A stretch of 36,431 nt of DNA from Crenobacter intestini (GTDB taxonomy: Bacteria; Pseudomonadota; Gammaproteobacteria; Burkholderiales; Chromobacteriaceae): contig NZ_STGJ01000024.1 of assembly GCF_004919095.1 (NCBI RefSeq), positions 1 through 36,431 of the forward strand, given 5' to 3'. This document shows positions 7,785-10,634 of this stretch, in pieces. The stretch's first letter is position 1. Each line of letters starts with the position of its first letter. Made by a program: the position numbers and the translations under genes. A model generated the notes under the pieces. The model saw nothing but the letters and a program-made list of their open reading frames with translations. It was not told where the DNA came from and searched no databases.

Positions 7785-7904
7785 TCACTTGTCCTTGCCG
7801 TGGCCAATGAACATCACCCACAGGTGGAAGGCGAGACCGGCCAGCGGCACCACCGCCAGCAGGATGACGAAGAACCATTCGAAGGGGGTCATAAGGTCGG
7901 TCAT
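7785..7904 (-). CDS. Small single-pass membrane protein, 39 aa, unknown
   Basis: This short frame encodes 39 residues: a polar start (MTDLMTPFEWF), one long hydrophobic helix (FVILLAVVPLAGLAFHLWVMF, about residues 11-31) and a charged tail IGHGKDK. Base composition at codon third positions matches real genes nearby. AGGG lies eight bases before the ATG at 7904; an in-frame ATG at 7892 has no ribosome site. It lies 85 bases downstream of the flavocytochrome gene on the same strand, separated by a hairpin. I do not recognise a family. By size and topology it could be a small subunit of a membrane redox complex, as CydX is for cytochrome bd, but this is a guess from context. Confidence 0.6.
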   Translation of the reverse strand: MTDLMTPFEWFFVILLAVVPLAGLAFHLWVMFIGHGKDK

Positions 7905-7952
7905 GGCATGGCCCTGCATGATGCGGAAATAGCCATGCTACACGGATAAACT

Positions 7953-7974
7953 GGCGCGACCAATCGGTCGCGCC
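7953..7974 (-). terminator. Hairpin after the flavocytochrome gene, possible weak terminator
   Basis: A perfect 9-bp stem GGCGCGACC/GGTCGCGCC with a 4-base loop begins 16 bases after the flavocytochrome stop. The following minus-strand bases AGTTTATCC contain only three T in a row, so termination is probably partial, allowing some read-through into the 39-aa gene. Confidence 0.5.
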
Positions 7975-7989
7975 GGCAGCCGTAAAGGT

Positions 7990-9558
7990 TTAGAAACGCA
8001 ACTCGACCCGCTCCGTCTCCGGCTCGGCCTGGCAGGCCAGCGTCCAGCCCTCGGCCAGTTCGGCGTCGGTCAGCACCTGGTTCTCGCGCAGCTTCACCCT
8101 GCCCGCGGTCACCTTGCACTTGCACGCGCCGCAACTGCCGGCACGGCAGGCGGACGGCGGCGTGAGCCCGGCGCGCTCCATGCTTGCGAGCAGCACTTCG
8201 CCCGGCCGGGCCTCGACGTTTTGCATCTGCCCGCCCAACGTCACCTGCAGCGTCGCCGCGCGGCCCGCGCCCGCCGGCGCCCGTACCTGCCCGAAACGCT
8301 CGACATGGACGCGCGCAGCGTCGACCCCCAGGTTGGCCAACGCCGCCTCGGCCGCCTGCATGAACGGCGCCGGCCCGCACACGAAGGCCTGCGCGTGCGT
8401 CCAGTCCTGCAGCAAGGCCGTGAGCGCTGCCGCGTCCAGGTAGCCGGACACCGCGTCGAAGTGGTGGTGCAGCGACAGGCGGTCCGGGTGCGTGGCGCAC
8501 AGGCGTTCGAGTTCGGCGGCGAAGATGGCCGACGCCGCGTCGCGGTTGGCGTAGACCAGGTGTACCCGTCCCTCGCCGTGGGCGAGCGCGTCCTGCAGCA
8601 GGGAAAATACCGGTGTGATGCCGCTGCCGGCGGCGATGAGCAGCAGGTCATCCGCGCAACCGTCGGCGACGAAGTTGCCCGCCGGCGGCAGCACTTCCAG
8701 CGTGTCGCCGGCTTTCAGTTCGCTATTGAGCCAGTTGGAGACGACGCCCCCGGCCACCCGCTTGACGGTGACGCGAGGTTGCGGCGCGCCTGGCGCGCTG
8801 GAAAACGAATAGCAGCGCCAGACCTTGCCATCGGCGGTGGGCGCGGCCAGCGTCAGGAACTGGCCGGCACGGTAGGCGAGGCGTGGCCGCAGGGCCGCCG
8901 GGACGTCGAACAGGATGCTGACAGCGTCGGCGCTCTCGCGGCGGACTTCGGCCACGCGCAGCGCCAGTGCGCCGTTTGCGGCGCCACGGCTGCCCGGTGC
9001 GGGGCCGACCGGCGGCTGCGGGGCCGGGCCTGCCGGCGTGGTCGGGCTGCCTCCGAGCATCGCCCACGCCTGACGGCGGCGGTAGAGGAGCAGCCAGCCC
9101 AGGTGCAGGCCGACCAGCGTGAGCGTCGCGTTAGCCAGCCACTCGTGCACCTCGTCGGCGTCCTTGAGCAAGCCACCGCCGCCCTCGTCGTAATCGCCGT
9201 CGTCGTCGGCCTGCGTCGCCGGGATCACCGTCGACAGCCCTTCGGACAGCGCCGCGCGGTTGTCGATCATCGTCACGCCTATGGTCAGGGTGGAGACGAA
9301 GCCCAGCACCAGCCCCACCGTCAGCAGCTTGCCGGCGAGCGCGTTACCCGGCTTCTTCCATTGCGCGGCAGGCGGCAGCAGTGCAGGAAAGCCGCGGCTG
9401 CGGGCGATGGCCAGCACGAGGCGCACGGCCAGCAGCGCGATCAGGCCGTAGCCCAACCACACATGCGCAAGTTCGGCGTCGTCACCGGTCAGGTAGGCCG
9501 CGCCAAAGGCGATGGCCAGCAGCCAGTGGTAGAGGCGGAAACGTGAGAACGGCTTCAT
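7990..9558 (-). CDS. Fusion of cytochrome b561-like membrane domain and FAD/NAD(P)/2Fe-2S reductase
   Basis: This 522-residue protein joins two modules. Residues 1-165 form a four-helix cytochrome b of the prokaryotic b561 type, with candidate heme ligands His11, His32, His138 and His152 and an acidic glycine-rich loop at about 116-138. A proline-rich linker (171-190) leads to a ferredoxin-NADP reductase-like part. This has the FAD motif RCYSFSS (248-254), the nicotinamide motif GSGITP (311-316) and CGPAPFM (394-400). A plant-type 2Fe-2S domain ends the protein, with Cys471, Cys476, Cys479 and Cys509. Electrons from cytosolic NAD(P)H should pass via FAD and 2Fe-2S to the b hemes (inference). 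It is divergent from the SHP and diheme cytochrome c genes, whose known partner is a cytochrome b. The start has AGGAG eight bases upstream. Confidence 0.9.
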   Translation of the reverse strand: MKPFSRFRLYHWLLAIAFGAAYLTGDDAELAHVWLGYGLIALLAVRLVLAIARSRGFPALLPPAAQWKKPGNALAGKLLTVGLVLGFVSTLTIGVTMIDNRAALSEGLSTVIPATQADDDGDYDEGGGGLLKDADEVHEWLANATLTLVGLHLGWLLLYRRRQAWAMLGGSPTTPAGPAPQPPVGPAPGSRGAANGALALRVAEVRRESADAVSILFDVPAALRPRLAYRAGQFLTLAAPTADGKVWRCYSFSSAPGAPQPRVTVKRVAGGVVSNWLNSELKAGDTLEVLPPAGNFVADGCADDLLLIAAGSGITPVFSLLQDALAHGEGRVHLVYANRDAASAIFAAELERLCATHPDRLSLHHHFDAVSGYLDAAALTALLQDWTHAQAFVCGPAPFMQAAEAALANLGVDAARVHVERFGQVRAPAGAGRAATLQVTLGGQMQNVEARPGEVLLASMERAGLTPPSACRAGSCGACKCKVTAGRVKLRENQVLTDAELAEGWTLACQAEPETERVELRF

Positions 9559-9606
9559 CGGTGGGCTCCTGTCGTCTTGTGGATGCCCCGAGTGTGCCGG
9601 CGCTGC

Positions 9607-9657
9607 CTTAAGCCACGATTAAGTACGATACCAAATGCATTTTAAGCTGGCATTAAG
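9607..9657. promoter_or_regulatory. Two OmpR-family direct-repeat operators in the divergent promoter region
   Basis: Read on the minus strand, 9652-9657/9641-9646 give CTTAATGCCAGCTTAAA and 9607-9623 gives CTTAATCGTGGCTTAAG. Both fit CTTAA-N6-CTTAA, the direct-repeat site known for QseB/PreA- and PmrA-type response regulators. The two boxes are 34 bases apart, about three helical turns, between the start codons of the flavocytochrome (9558) and the SHP gene (9703). They probably control one or both directions. No regulator gene is in the window. Confidence 0.65.
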
Positions 9658-9702
9658 GTCGGCCAAGCATCCTGATGGCATTGAACGACCAGGAGCCCGA
9701 TC

Positions 9703-10110
9703 ATGATGCGTCCCCTCACCCTCTGTCTTGCCGTATTCGCCAGCACTAGCACGCTGGCCGCCACGCCCGCCGAACTGCTCAAGGCTTACGAGCAGCAGGC
9801 GCGCAGCGAAAACCCGGCCTTCGCCGGCTTTTCCGCCAGCCGCGGCAAGGCGTTGTACTTCAGCCAGTCGCAGGCCAGCGGCAAGACCATGAGTTGCACC
9901 ACCTGCCACAGCGCCGACCCGAAAAAGGCAGGCAAGACGCCGGCCTTCCGCACACTGGCACCGCTCGCGCCGGCGGCCGAACCCACCCGCTTCACCGACG
10001 CCAAGAAGGTCGAGAAATGGTTCCGCCGCAACTGCGACGACGTATTCAAGCGTGAATGCAGCGCGCAGGAGAAGGGCGACTTCGTCAGCTGGATCGTCAG
10101 CGTCCGCTAA
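9703..10110 (+). CDS. SHP-type monoheme cytochrome c (DUF1924), oxygen-binding
   Basis: The 135-residue product has a Sec signal peptide (about residues 1-19, ending STLAA), one heme c site CTTCH (65-69) and a C-terminal helix WFRRNCDDVFKREC (106-119). DUF1924 is the family of sphaeroides heme protein (SHP), a high-spin periplasmic cytochrome whose sixth ligand is an asparagine that swings away to let oxygen bind. Asn110, followed by Cys111 and Cys119, which could form the neighbouring disulfide, fits that. ATG 9703 has AGGAG seven bases upstream. It is followed 11 bases later by the diheme cytochrome gene, its known electron donor in Rhodobacter, and is surely co-transcribed with it. Confidence 0.88.
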   Translation: MMRPLTLCLAVFASTSTLAATPAELLKAYEQQARSENPAFAGFSASRGKALYFSQSQASGKTMSCTTCHSADPKKAGKTPAFRTLAPLAPAAEPTRFTDAKKVEKWFRRNCDDVFKRECSAQEKGDFVSWIVSVR

Positions 10111-10121
10111 AGGAGAACCAC

Positions 10122-10634
10122 ATGCGCATCCCCATCCTCACCCTTTGTGCACTGTCGCTCGCCGGCGGCTTCGCGCTGGCCGACGACGACCACCACCACG
10201 GCGGCAAGAAATACAAGCGGCCCAAGCAGCTCGCCGTGCCCTTGTCCGCCCCCAAGGTGTGGACCGCCGAGTGCGGCAGCTGCCATATCGCCTACCCGCC
10301 GGGCCTGCTGCCGCCGGCGGCGTGGAAACAGCAGATGGACACGCTGAAGCATCACTACGGCAGCAACGCGACGCTGGACAAGACCGACGAACAGGCGATC
10401 CGCGATTTCCTCGCCTTTGCGTCGCAGGCGAACCGGCTACCGCTCGAGCCCTCACCCAAGGCCGGCGAGCCGCCGCGCATCACCACCACGCGCTGGTTTA
10501 TCCGCAAGCACGACGAAGTCACCGCCGAGCAGTGGCGGCGCAAGTCGGTGGGAAGCAAAGCCAACTGCCAGGCCTGCCACGCCGGTGCAGAGAAGGGCGA
10601 TTTCGACGACGACCGCGTGCAGATCCCCCGTTAG
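10122..10634 (+). CDS. Periplasmic diheme cytochrome c (DHC type)
   Basis: The 170-residue product has a signal peptide ending GGFALA at residue 20, a histidine-rich start to the mature chain (DDDHHHGGKK) and two heme c motifs, CGSCH (51-55) and CQACH (149-153). His77/78 and His130 are candidates for distal ligands. In Rhodobacter sphaeroides and several other proteobacteria a diheme cytochrome c of this kind is encoded beside SHP and a cytochrome b and passes electrons to SHP. Order, spacing and size agree with that. AGGAG lies six bases before the start. The histidine-rich N-terminus could bind metal but that is untested. Confidence 0.88.
   Translation: MRIPILTLCALSLAGGFALADDDHHHGGKKYKRPKQLAVPLSAPKVWTAECGSCHIAYPPGLLPPAAWKQQMDTLKHHYGSNATLDKTDEQAIRDFLAFASQANRLPLEPSPKAGEPPRITTTRWFIRKHDEVTAEQWRRKSVGSKANCQACHAGAEKGDFDDDRVQIPR

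Follow-up and report, generated by a model that had tools for sequence, protein, structure and literature searches.

Here, we found that a locus of Crenobacter intestini for SHP, a c-type heme protein, and its diheme cytochrome c partner (DHC) carries a cytochrome b fused to an NAD(P)H reductase in one protein, which probably acts as a transmembrane NAD(P)H:DHC/SHP reductase. The locus lies on contig NZ_STGJ01000024.1, which was analysed over its whole 36,431 nucleotides (the window). A first-pass annotation of the sequence had proposed a single protein with b-heme, FAD, nicotinamide and 2Fe-2S domains that is divergent from SHP-type and diheme cytochromes, and both parts of this description were borne out. 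The architecture is not confined to the window. Across samples of Pseudomonadota we recovered the full fusion gene 45 times, from 43 genomes, and every one of the 45 adjoins an SHP match at a distance of 248–290 bases.

The fusion is encoded by a single open reading frame (7990–9558, minus strand), which starts with ATG, specifies 522 amino acids and contains no internal stops. From the N- to the C-terminus it comprises a cytochrome b561 domain (PF01292, residues 7–170, 53 bits against a cut-off of 30.1), a FAD domain (PF00970, FAD_binding_6, residues 201–296), an NAD domain (PF00175, NAD_binding_1, residues 307–404) and a 2Fe-2S ferredoxin (PF00111, Fer2, residues 440–513), each of the four Pfam matches scoring above its own gathering cut-off. 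We delimited the b561 module, with its four conserved histidines and charged loops, to residues 1–169 (9052–9558, minus strand), and the NAD(P)H reductase module with its C-terminal ferredoxin to residues 191–522 (7993–8988, minus strand); the latter was assigned to the PaaE class from its three Pfam domains and a tree. The histidines H11, H32, H138 and H152 of b561 are invariant in all 13 aligned fusion sequences, as are the motifs RCYS, GSGITP and CGP and the cysteines C471, C476, C479 and C509. From general knowledge of these families, we take the histidines to be heme ligands and the other motifs to be cofactor-binding. Since relatives with as little as 44% identity also have the fusion at full length, and the cofactor motifs are kept in 13 of 13 sequences, a chance arrangement can be excluded. 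With helix borders that we placed ourselves, the N-terminus (+3), loop 2 (+4) and the start of the C-terminal part (+4) are basic and loops 1 (-3) and 3 (residues 97–138, -9) are acidic, which argues for N- and C-termini inside and a cytosolic reductase. On this charge pattern, the reductase module should reside in the cytosol, and the acidic b561 loop should be periplasmic and face DHC and SHP.

SHP (9703–10110, plus strand) has a signal-like N-terminus and matches DUF1924 (PF09086) with 125 bits against a cut-off of 22.5; it aligns to the solved SHP of Rhodobacter sphaeroides, 1dw0, with an E-value of 2.9e-27. Its heme site is CTTCH. The ligand region WFRRNC...C aligns with WLGRNC...C of 1dw0, comprising the asparagine sixth ligand, the tryptophan four residues before it and the cysteine pair after it, residues whose roles have been described for a protein that binds O2 when reduced (PMC2909971). 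The tryptophan and asparagine of this O2-binding type are kept in all 38 fusion loci examined. DHC (10122–10634, plus strand) matches PF09626 with 120 bits, has two CxxCH sites (CGSCH and CQACH) and aligns with the solved structures 3u99 and 2fw5; its start at 10122 was picked by eye, the longest frame starting at 10056. The computed isoelectric points, each without the first 20 residues, are 8.9 for DHC and 9.5 for SHP. The fusion is transcribed divergently from both genes.

Is the fusion a peculiarity of one strain or a recurring partner of SHP? All fusions lie beside SHP in the window's family (7 of 7), in another family of the order (1 of 1) and in the Pseudomonadaceae, including Stutzerimonas (37 of 37). 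Among 61 genomes of the window's family, a DUF1924 match was found in 16 and the full fusion in 7, all within those 16. The order sample of 399 genomes holds DUF1924 matches in 107 and the full fusion in 3 (the window's genome, G002 and G260), while the class sample of 369 genomes yielded the window's genome and G607; in the family of G260 (6 genomes), SHP occurs in 5 and the fusion in 1. Among 248 sampled Pseudomonadaceae, the family to which we assign G607, 37 fusion genes occur in 35 genomes, and the same 35 hold 37 strong SHP matches (E ≤ 1e-36). The two pair one to one, including two genomes with two copies, at 248–260 bases in all 37 cases, and each strong SHP match is accompanied by a fusion. 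The other eight fusions lie 256–290 bases from the SHP match. Weak DUF1924 matches (E > 1e-5; 4 in Pseudomonadaceae) were excluded from the pairing count, and two weak matches correspond to the fusion-less genomes G976 and G999. The fusion searches used E limits of 1e-60 (family), 1e-75 (order), 1e-100 (class and family of G260) and 1e-140 (Pseudomonadaceae), strict enough that more divergent fusions may escape these counts. The co-occurrence of reductase fusions with DUF1924, which the first-pass annotation had suggested looking for, holds in 45 of 45 cases. Neither outcome that it had named as refuting, separate genes in this strain or a reductase not conserved beside SHP in relatives, was observed.

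When a genome collection was scanned for the b561 part, 64 pattern matches were obtained and 16 loci were confirmed. Ten of these are full fusions adjoining SHP and DHC, a subset of the 45 and not additional to them: Crenobacter caeni, two Craterilacuibacter (NCBI taxonomy places both genera in the Neisseriales), Vogesella aquatica, Aquitalea pelogenes, Pseudomonas songnenensis, Stutzerimonas stutzeri 24a75, Serpens gallinarum, P. oligotrophica and S. frequens. Five have b561 without a reductase beside SHP, the SHP of Paludibacterium denitrificans being split over two frames, and one has b561 in a genome where no SHP was found. The fusion of G030 is 92% identical to that of the window. A single-strain oddity is ruled out by the recurrence in these named relatives and in the Pseudomonadaceae. 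Separately, the plasmid pBYT5-2 of Pseudomonas sp. BYT-5, typed conjugative, carries the fusion and SHP (L210, 14411–16587) with a Tn3-type transposase nearby; no DHC was noticed adjoining SHP and the fusion in this copy, which was not used as functional evidence.

Both trees that we calculated are compatible with a single fusion event, for which the support is moderate. In a quick b561 tree (24 fused and 50 unfused rows), the fused proteins and two ferredoxin-only forms make up one fork, with a support of 93 in the SH-like approximate likelihood-ratio test (SH-aLRT); two state changes are needed, most plausibly a single fusion and a single loss. In a more careful reductase tree (22 fused and 16 free modules), one branch separates the two sets (92/94) and is present in 92% of 200 bootstrap trees. 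Three fusion groups are shared by both trees: one unites the window's genus and G260, the second unites Vogesella and the Aquitalea group, and the third consists of the Pseudomonadaceae. Of the 30 fusion loci L107 and L111–L139 of the Pseudomonadaceae, the b561 tree drew on 10, together with the plasmid copy and five named loci, and it omitted four loci that were duplicates and, in two cases, a second b561 gene; the reductase tree drew on 9 of those 30 and five named loci, omitted one duplicate locus, two NOX-type proteins and the plasmid copy, and has repeats in 4 of its 38 rows. The window's genome also encodes a free reductase paralogue with 56% identity to the module of the fusion, near genes whose matches to 3-ketosteroid dehydrogenase models stay under the cut-off.

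The natural reading of this arrangement is a line from NAD(P)H through FAD, the 2Fe-2S centre, the b hemes and DHC to SHP, a path that we regard as likely. Cytosolic NAD(P)H would reduce the FAD of the C-terminal module, and the electrons would pass one at a time via the ferredoxin to two b hemes of the four-helix b561, cross the inner membrane through these and exit from the acidic loop on the periplasmic side towards the basic DHC, which would in turn reduce the ligand-switching, O2-binding SHP. Within this path we infer the direction of flow, the docking of the partners and the topology; docking is supported by the charge of -9 on the b561 loop against the basic DHC and SHP. The potentials of the R. 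sphaeroides DHC are near -240 and -310 mV, well under that of ubiquinol and not far from that of NAD(P)H. A title cited in PMC2909971 applies the term 'low-redox potential' to DHCs, and a low potential suits NAD(P)H better than quinol.

What would SHP do with these electrons? It would turn over O2 with a periplasmic substrate, for which nitric oxide (NO) is the best candidate, since NO dioxygenase activity has been reported for the R. sphaeroides SHP (PMC2909971). The locus would then act as a flavohemoglobin with its heme head outside the membrane. Periplasmic NO dioxygenation is our preferred, if tentative, guess for the purpose of SHP. In Allochromatium vinosum, genes for DUF1924, DHC and b561 are among the most induced on pyrite as compared to sulfide, in a set that includes efflux genes with nearby locus numbers (PMC11267869, Table 1), and this induction may be a clue to metal or sulfur stress.

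Several observations count against the proposed path. The published view is that quinol feeds CytB, DHC and SHP (PMC2909971), and unfused loci are the great majority of the order sample, as the counts of DUF1924 and fusion genomes given above show (107 and 3 of 399). These loci presumably run on a plain b561 fed by quinol, and the fused b561 may still accept quinol as well. Of the 95 strong SHP places of the order sample (E 1e-33 or better), we examined 40 loci, about one per genus: b561 is present in 38, none with a reductase, and DHC in 39, and in L172, L178 and L182 the b561 frame matches DHC as well. In a further locus of the comparison, L209 (3907–4949, plus strand), SHP directly precedes b561 and no DHC was detected within the stretch. 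The nine SHP genomes of the window's family without the full fusion comprise two with b561 plus ferredoxin, four with a lone divergent b561 and three with a more distant b561 that lies on the SHP strand. The first two, G003 and G005 from the genus of Aquitalea pelogenes, keep SHP, DHC, b561 and ferredoxin without the FAD/NAD part (L037, 6487–7455, plus strand; L038, 6186–7130, plus strand), so that these loci can do without a direct input from NAD(P)H; one of them is b561 fused to ferredoxin alone, and in G005 an in-frame stop parts b561 and ferredoxin. Both loci are best read as having lost the FAD/NAD part. Moreover, the tryptophan/asparagine pattern of SHP is also found in 44 of 44 classifiable unfused loci (our motif script classified 44 of 48 and missed 4) and hence is not specific to the fusion. 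Crude hydropathy flagged two stretches in place of the four helices expected of b561, so the topology leans on family membership, and the support in the two trees (SH-aLRT 93; 92/94) is moderate, with neither branch starred.

Two loci offer a parallel to the NAD(P)H-fed path. In L203 (5234–6571, plus strand) and L206 (2103–3440, minus strand), a 446-residue protein with Ferric_reduct (PF01794) and a FAD domain is encoded downstream of DHC, and no b561 was seen in the fetched stretch of these SHP-DHC loci. The nucleotide-binding half of this protein was matched solely by our own FAD/NAD profile; L206 is truncated where its contig stops, and a second SHP lies elsewhere in the genome of L203. Here, a flavoprotein of the NOX/ferric-reductase type seemingly replaces b561 as an independent flavin-linked input.

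How do other roles of the fusion compare with the proposed reduction of DHC and SHP? It could mainly be an NAD(P)H:quinone oxidoreductase that works at b561 and couples the quinone pool locally, with SHP and DHC drawing on that pool. This fits the view that the cytochromes b of SHP loci react with quinol (PMC2909971), and the Aquitalea-group loci that keep SHP and DHC without the FAD/NAD part favour it. A general quinone reductase, however, would not need the pairing with SHP seen in 45 of 45 cases, and the two loci in which another flavoprotein membrane reductase stands without a visible b561 also count against such a role, which we consider unlikely. That the fusion is instead a ferric or metal-chelate reductase, or a NOX-like producer of reactive oxygen species with SHP and DHC as bystanders or secondary acceptors, is suggested by the resemblance of its NAD(P)H-FAD-heme design to NOX and ferric reductases (PMC5676040); the lack of PF01794, a family present in the L203 and L206 proteins, and the strict pairing with SHP render this quite improbable.

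Electrons might also flow inward, if superoxide, metals or other periplasmic donors were oxidised via SHP and DHC and the reductase passed their electrons to NAD(P)+. The superoxide oxidase relevant to such a flow is presumably a b561, and PaaE-class reductases are generally known to work from NAD(P)H towards acceptors. Although a membrane-bound four-helix superoxide oxidase exists (PMC11869295), the O2 binding of reduced SHP (PMC2909971) points the other way too, and we give inward flow very little credence. Finally, two adjacent genes could have been read as one by an error of assembly or gene calling, and a frameshift between separate genes is what the first-pass annotation had named as refuting its proposal. 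Nothing was found in favour of such an error; with one frame and no stops in the window and in 45 full-length matches, some of them in single-contig genomes (G002, G260), such an artefact is ruled out for practical purposes.

The locus can be compared with several known systems. The SHP operon of R. sphaeroides and other proteobacteria likewise combines an SHP with an asparagine ligand, DHC, a b561-type partner and, in many cases, QseC-type regulation; in those operons CytB stands alone or forms a chimera with DHC or SHP and is believed to draw on quinol (PMC2909971), whereas in the present locus it is joined to an NAD(P)H-FAD-2Fe-2S reductase. The view of the first-pass annotation that the cytochrome b of known SHP loci is a separate protein stands in part, as a separate CytB is known but CytB/DHC and CytB/SHP chimeras have also been published; PMC2909971 contains no reductase chimera, and the words 'fusion', 'reductase', 'FAD' and 'ferredoxin' are absent from it. 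The order of FAD, NAD and C-terminal plant-type ferredoxin domains is that of PaaE-class reductases, but the module is fused to a membrane cytochrome and does not serve a soluble oxygenase. The top NCBIfam match is the PaaE model TIGR02160 with 247.9 bits, far below its equivalog cut-off of 420.8, and we regard the module as a relative within the class, not as the phenylacetyl-CoA epoxidase reductase proper. Flavohemoglobin Hmp combines a globin and an NAD(P)H-FAD module in one soluble protein. As in Hmp, such a module would feed an O2-binding heme, with NO dioxygenation as the proposed outcome; unlike in Hmp, a heme c protein lies outside, membrane b hemes stand between and a 2Fe-2S centre is added. 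A flavohemoglobin itself was rejected, since NF009805 scores 136.8 bits against a cut-off of 432 over the reductase part only and no globin family is among the Pfam matches. NOX/SpNOX and Fre-MsrQ-MsrP share the order NAD(P)H, flavin, membrane hemes and periplasmic acceptor, but they have PF01794 where the fusion has PF01292, lack a ferredoxin domain and reduce MsrP or O2 (PMC5676040). The first-pass annotation knew of no description of the architecture, and we found none in the open-access literature, a search largely outside subscription papers whose silence is not proof. Judged by its sequence, the fusion is a new form of the known SHP system that occurs in the Pseudomonadaceae and in the window's group; it does not constitute a new kind of system.

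The locus would probably be switched on by a QseB/PmrA-type response regulator. The divergent intergenic region (9559–9702, 144 bases) contains two TTAAG-N6-TTAAG boxes (9608–9623 and 9642–9657), the first of which reads CTTAAG-N5-ATTAAG and is close to the Salmonella PmrA box CTTAAG-N5-XTTAAT, whose definition we adopted (PMC3973317). The pattern occurs seven times at six places in the 3.4-Mb genome, with two occurrences in the SHP divergent region, and the reversed pattern used as a control does not occur. At two of the other places, a box precedes a gene: an EptA-like gene starts about 45 bases after one box, and a YgiW-type gene follows another at about 53 bases; a TonB-dependent copper-receptor-like gene was dropped as a box neighbour, since the box lies behind its end. 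The gene eptA (pmrC) is a PmrA target. In Salmonella, ygiW is a target of PreA (QseB), and the genes activated by PreA/PmrA include the cytochrome b561 STM1253 (PMC2653508). To judge by its boxes, the SHP locus seems to share a regulon with the EptA-like and YgiW-type genes.

The relaxed pattern TTMAG-N6-TTMAG, chosen after viewing the Pseudomonadaceae variants, precedes SHP in 34 of the 38 fusion loci examined, a set that comprises 30 of the 37 loci from Pseudomonadaceae and 8 others, and in 20 of 44 unfused ones, where mononucleotide shuffles of these related loci predict 0.05 and 0.04, respectively. Vogesella, G002, Aquitalea pelogenes and G260 have one-mismatch forms and no exact box; such forms count for little, because near-matches are common (59 exact occurrences and 190 with at most one mismatch in 667 kb of partly overlapping loci). 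A QseC-like kinase on contig 15 of the window's genome scores 452.9 bits against a cut-off of 475 and, by our reading of the sequence, adjoins an OmpR-type regulator. Of the 40 SHP loci of the order sample, 33 contain a regulator similar to this one (45–62% identity) and 28 contain a similar kinase; neither was found in the fusion loci compared. SHP operons of many species have been linked to SK2 (QseC-type) regulation (PMC2909971), and the boxes together with kinase genes elsewhere suggest that this link is kept in trans in fusion loci; it seems to persist where the locus has no kinase genes.

The span of 7785–10634 given by the first-pass annotation takes in the fusion, SHP and DHC, but it begins in a small open reading frame that lies outside the fusion, downstream of it (7785/7788–7919, minus strand; 39–44 residues with one hydrophobic stretch). 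The frame at 7788–7919 has counterparts of 79–95% identity in three of three other genomes of the genus, weak, chance-like matches in the other compared loci and no Pfam or NCBIfam match. As its clear matches are confined to the genus, it is a doubtful candidate for a conserved subunit and is perhaps unrelated to the system. The flanking genes, putatively named by eye, are secA and an aldolase/phosphoglycerate kinase group.

In summary, we speculate that b561 joined to a PaaE-class module represents a separate class of NAD(P)H:cytochrome c reductase that spans the membrane and powers SHP as a periplasmic dioxygenase, similar to flavohemoglobin and acting on NO or in another O2-dependent reaction, under QseB/PmrA control, with flavoprotein input recruited at least twice independently; taken as a whole, this fuller picture is possible but less than even in our estimate. 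The conserved, fused NAD(P)H module names a likely electron source of SHP in one lineage and permits an assay on a single locus, with NAD(P)H supplied and the redox state of SHP read out, in cultivable bacteria such as Stutzerimonas. In this way the long-unknown job of SHP becomes testable through the fusion, and the tandem boxes place the SHP locus in a regulon that can be tested likewise. If SHP loci have indeed recruited a flavoprotein at least twice, the quinol-fed model of SHP would not be general.

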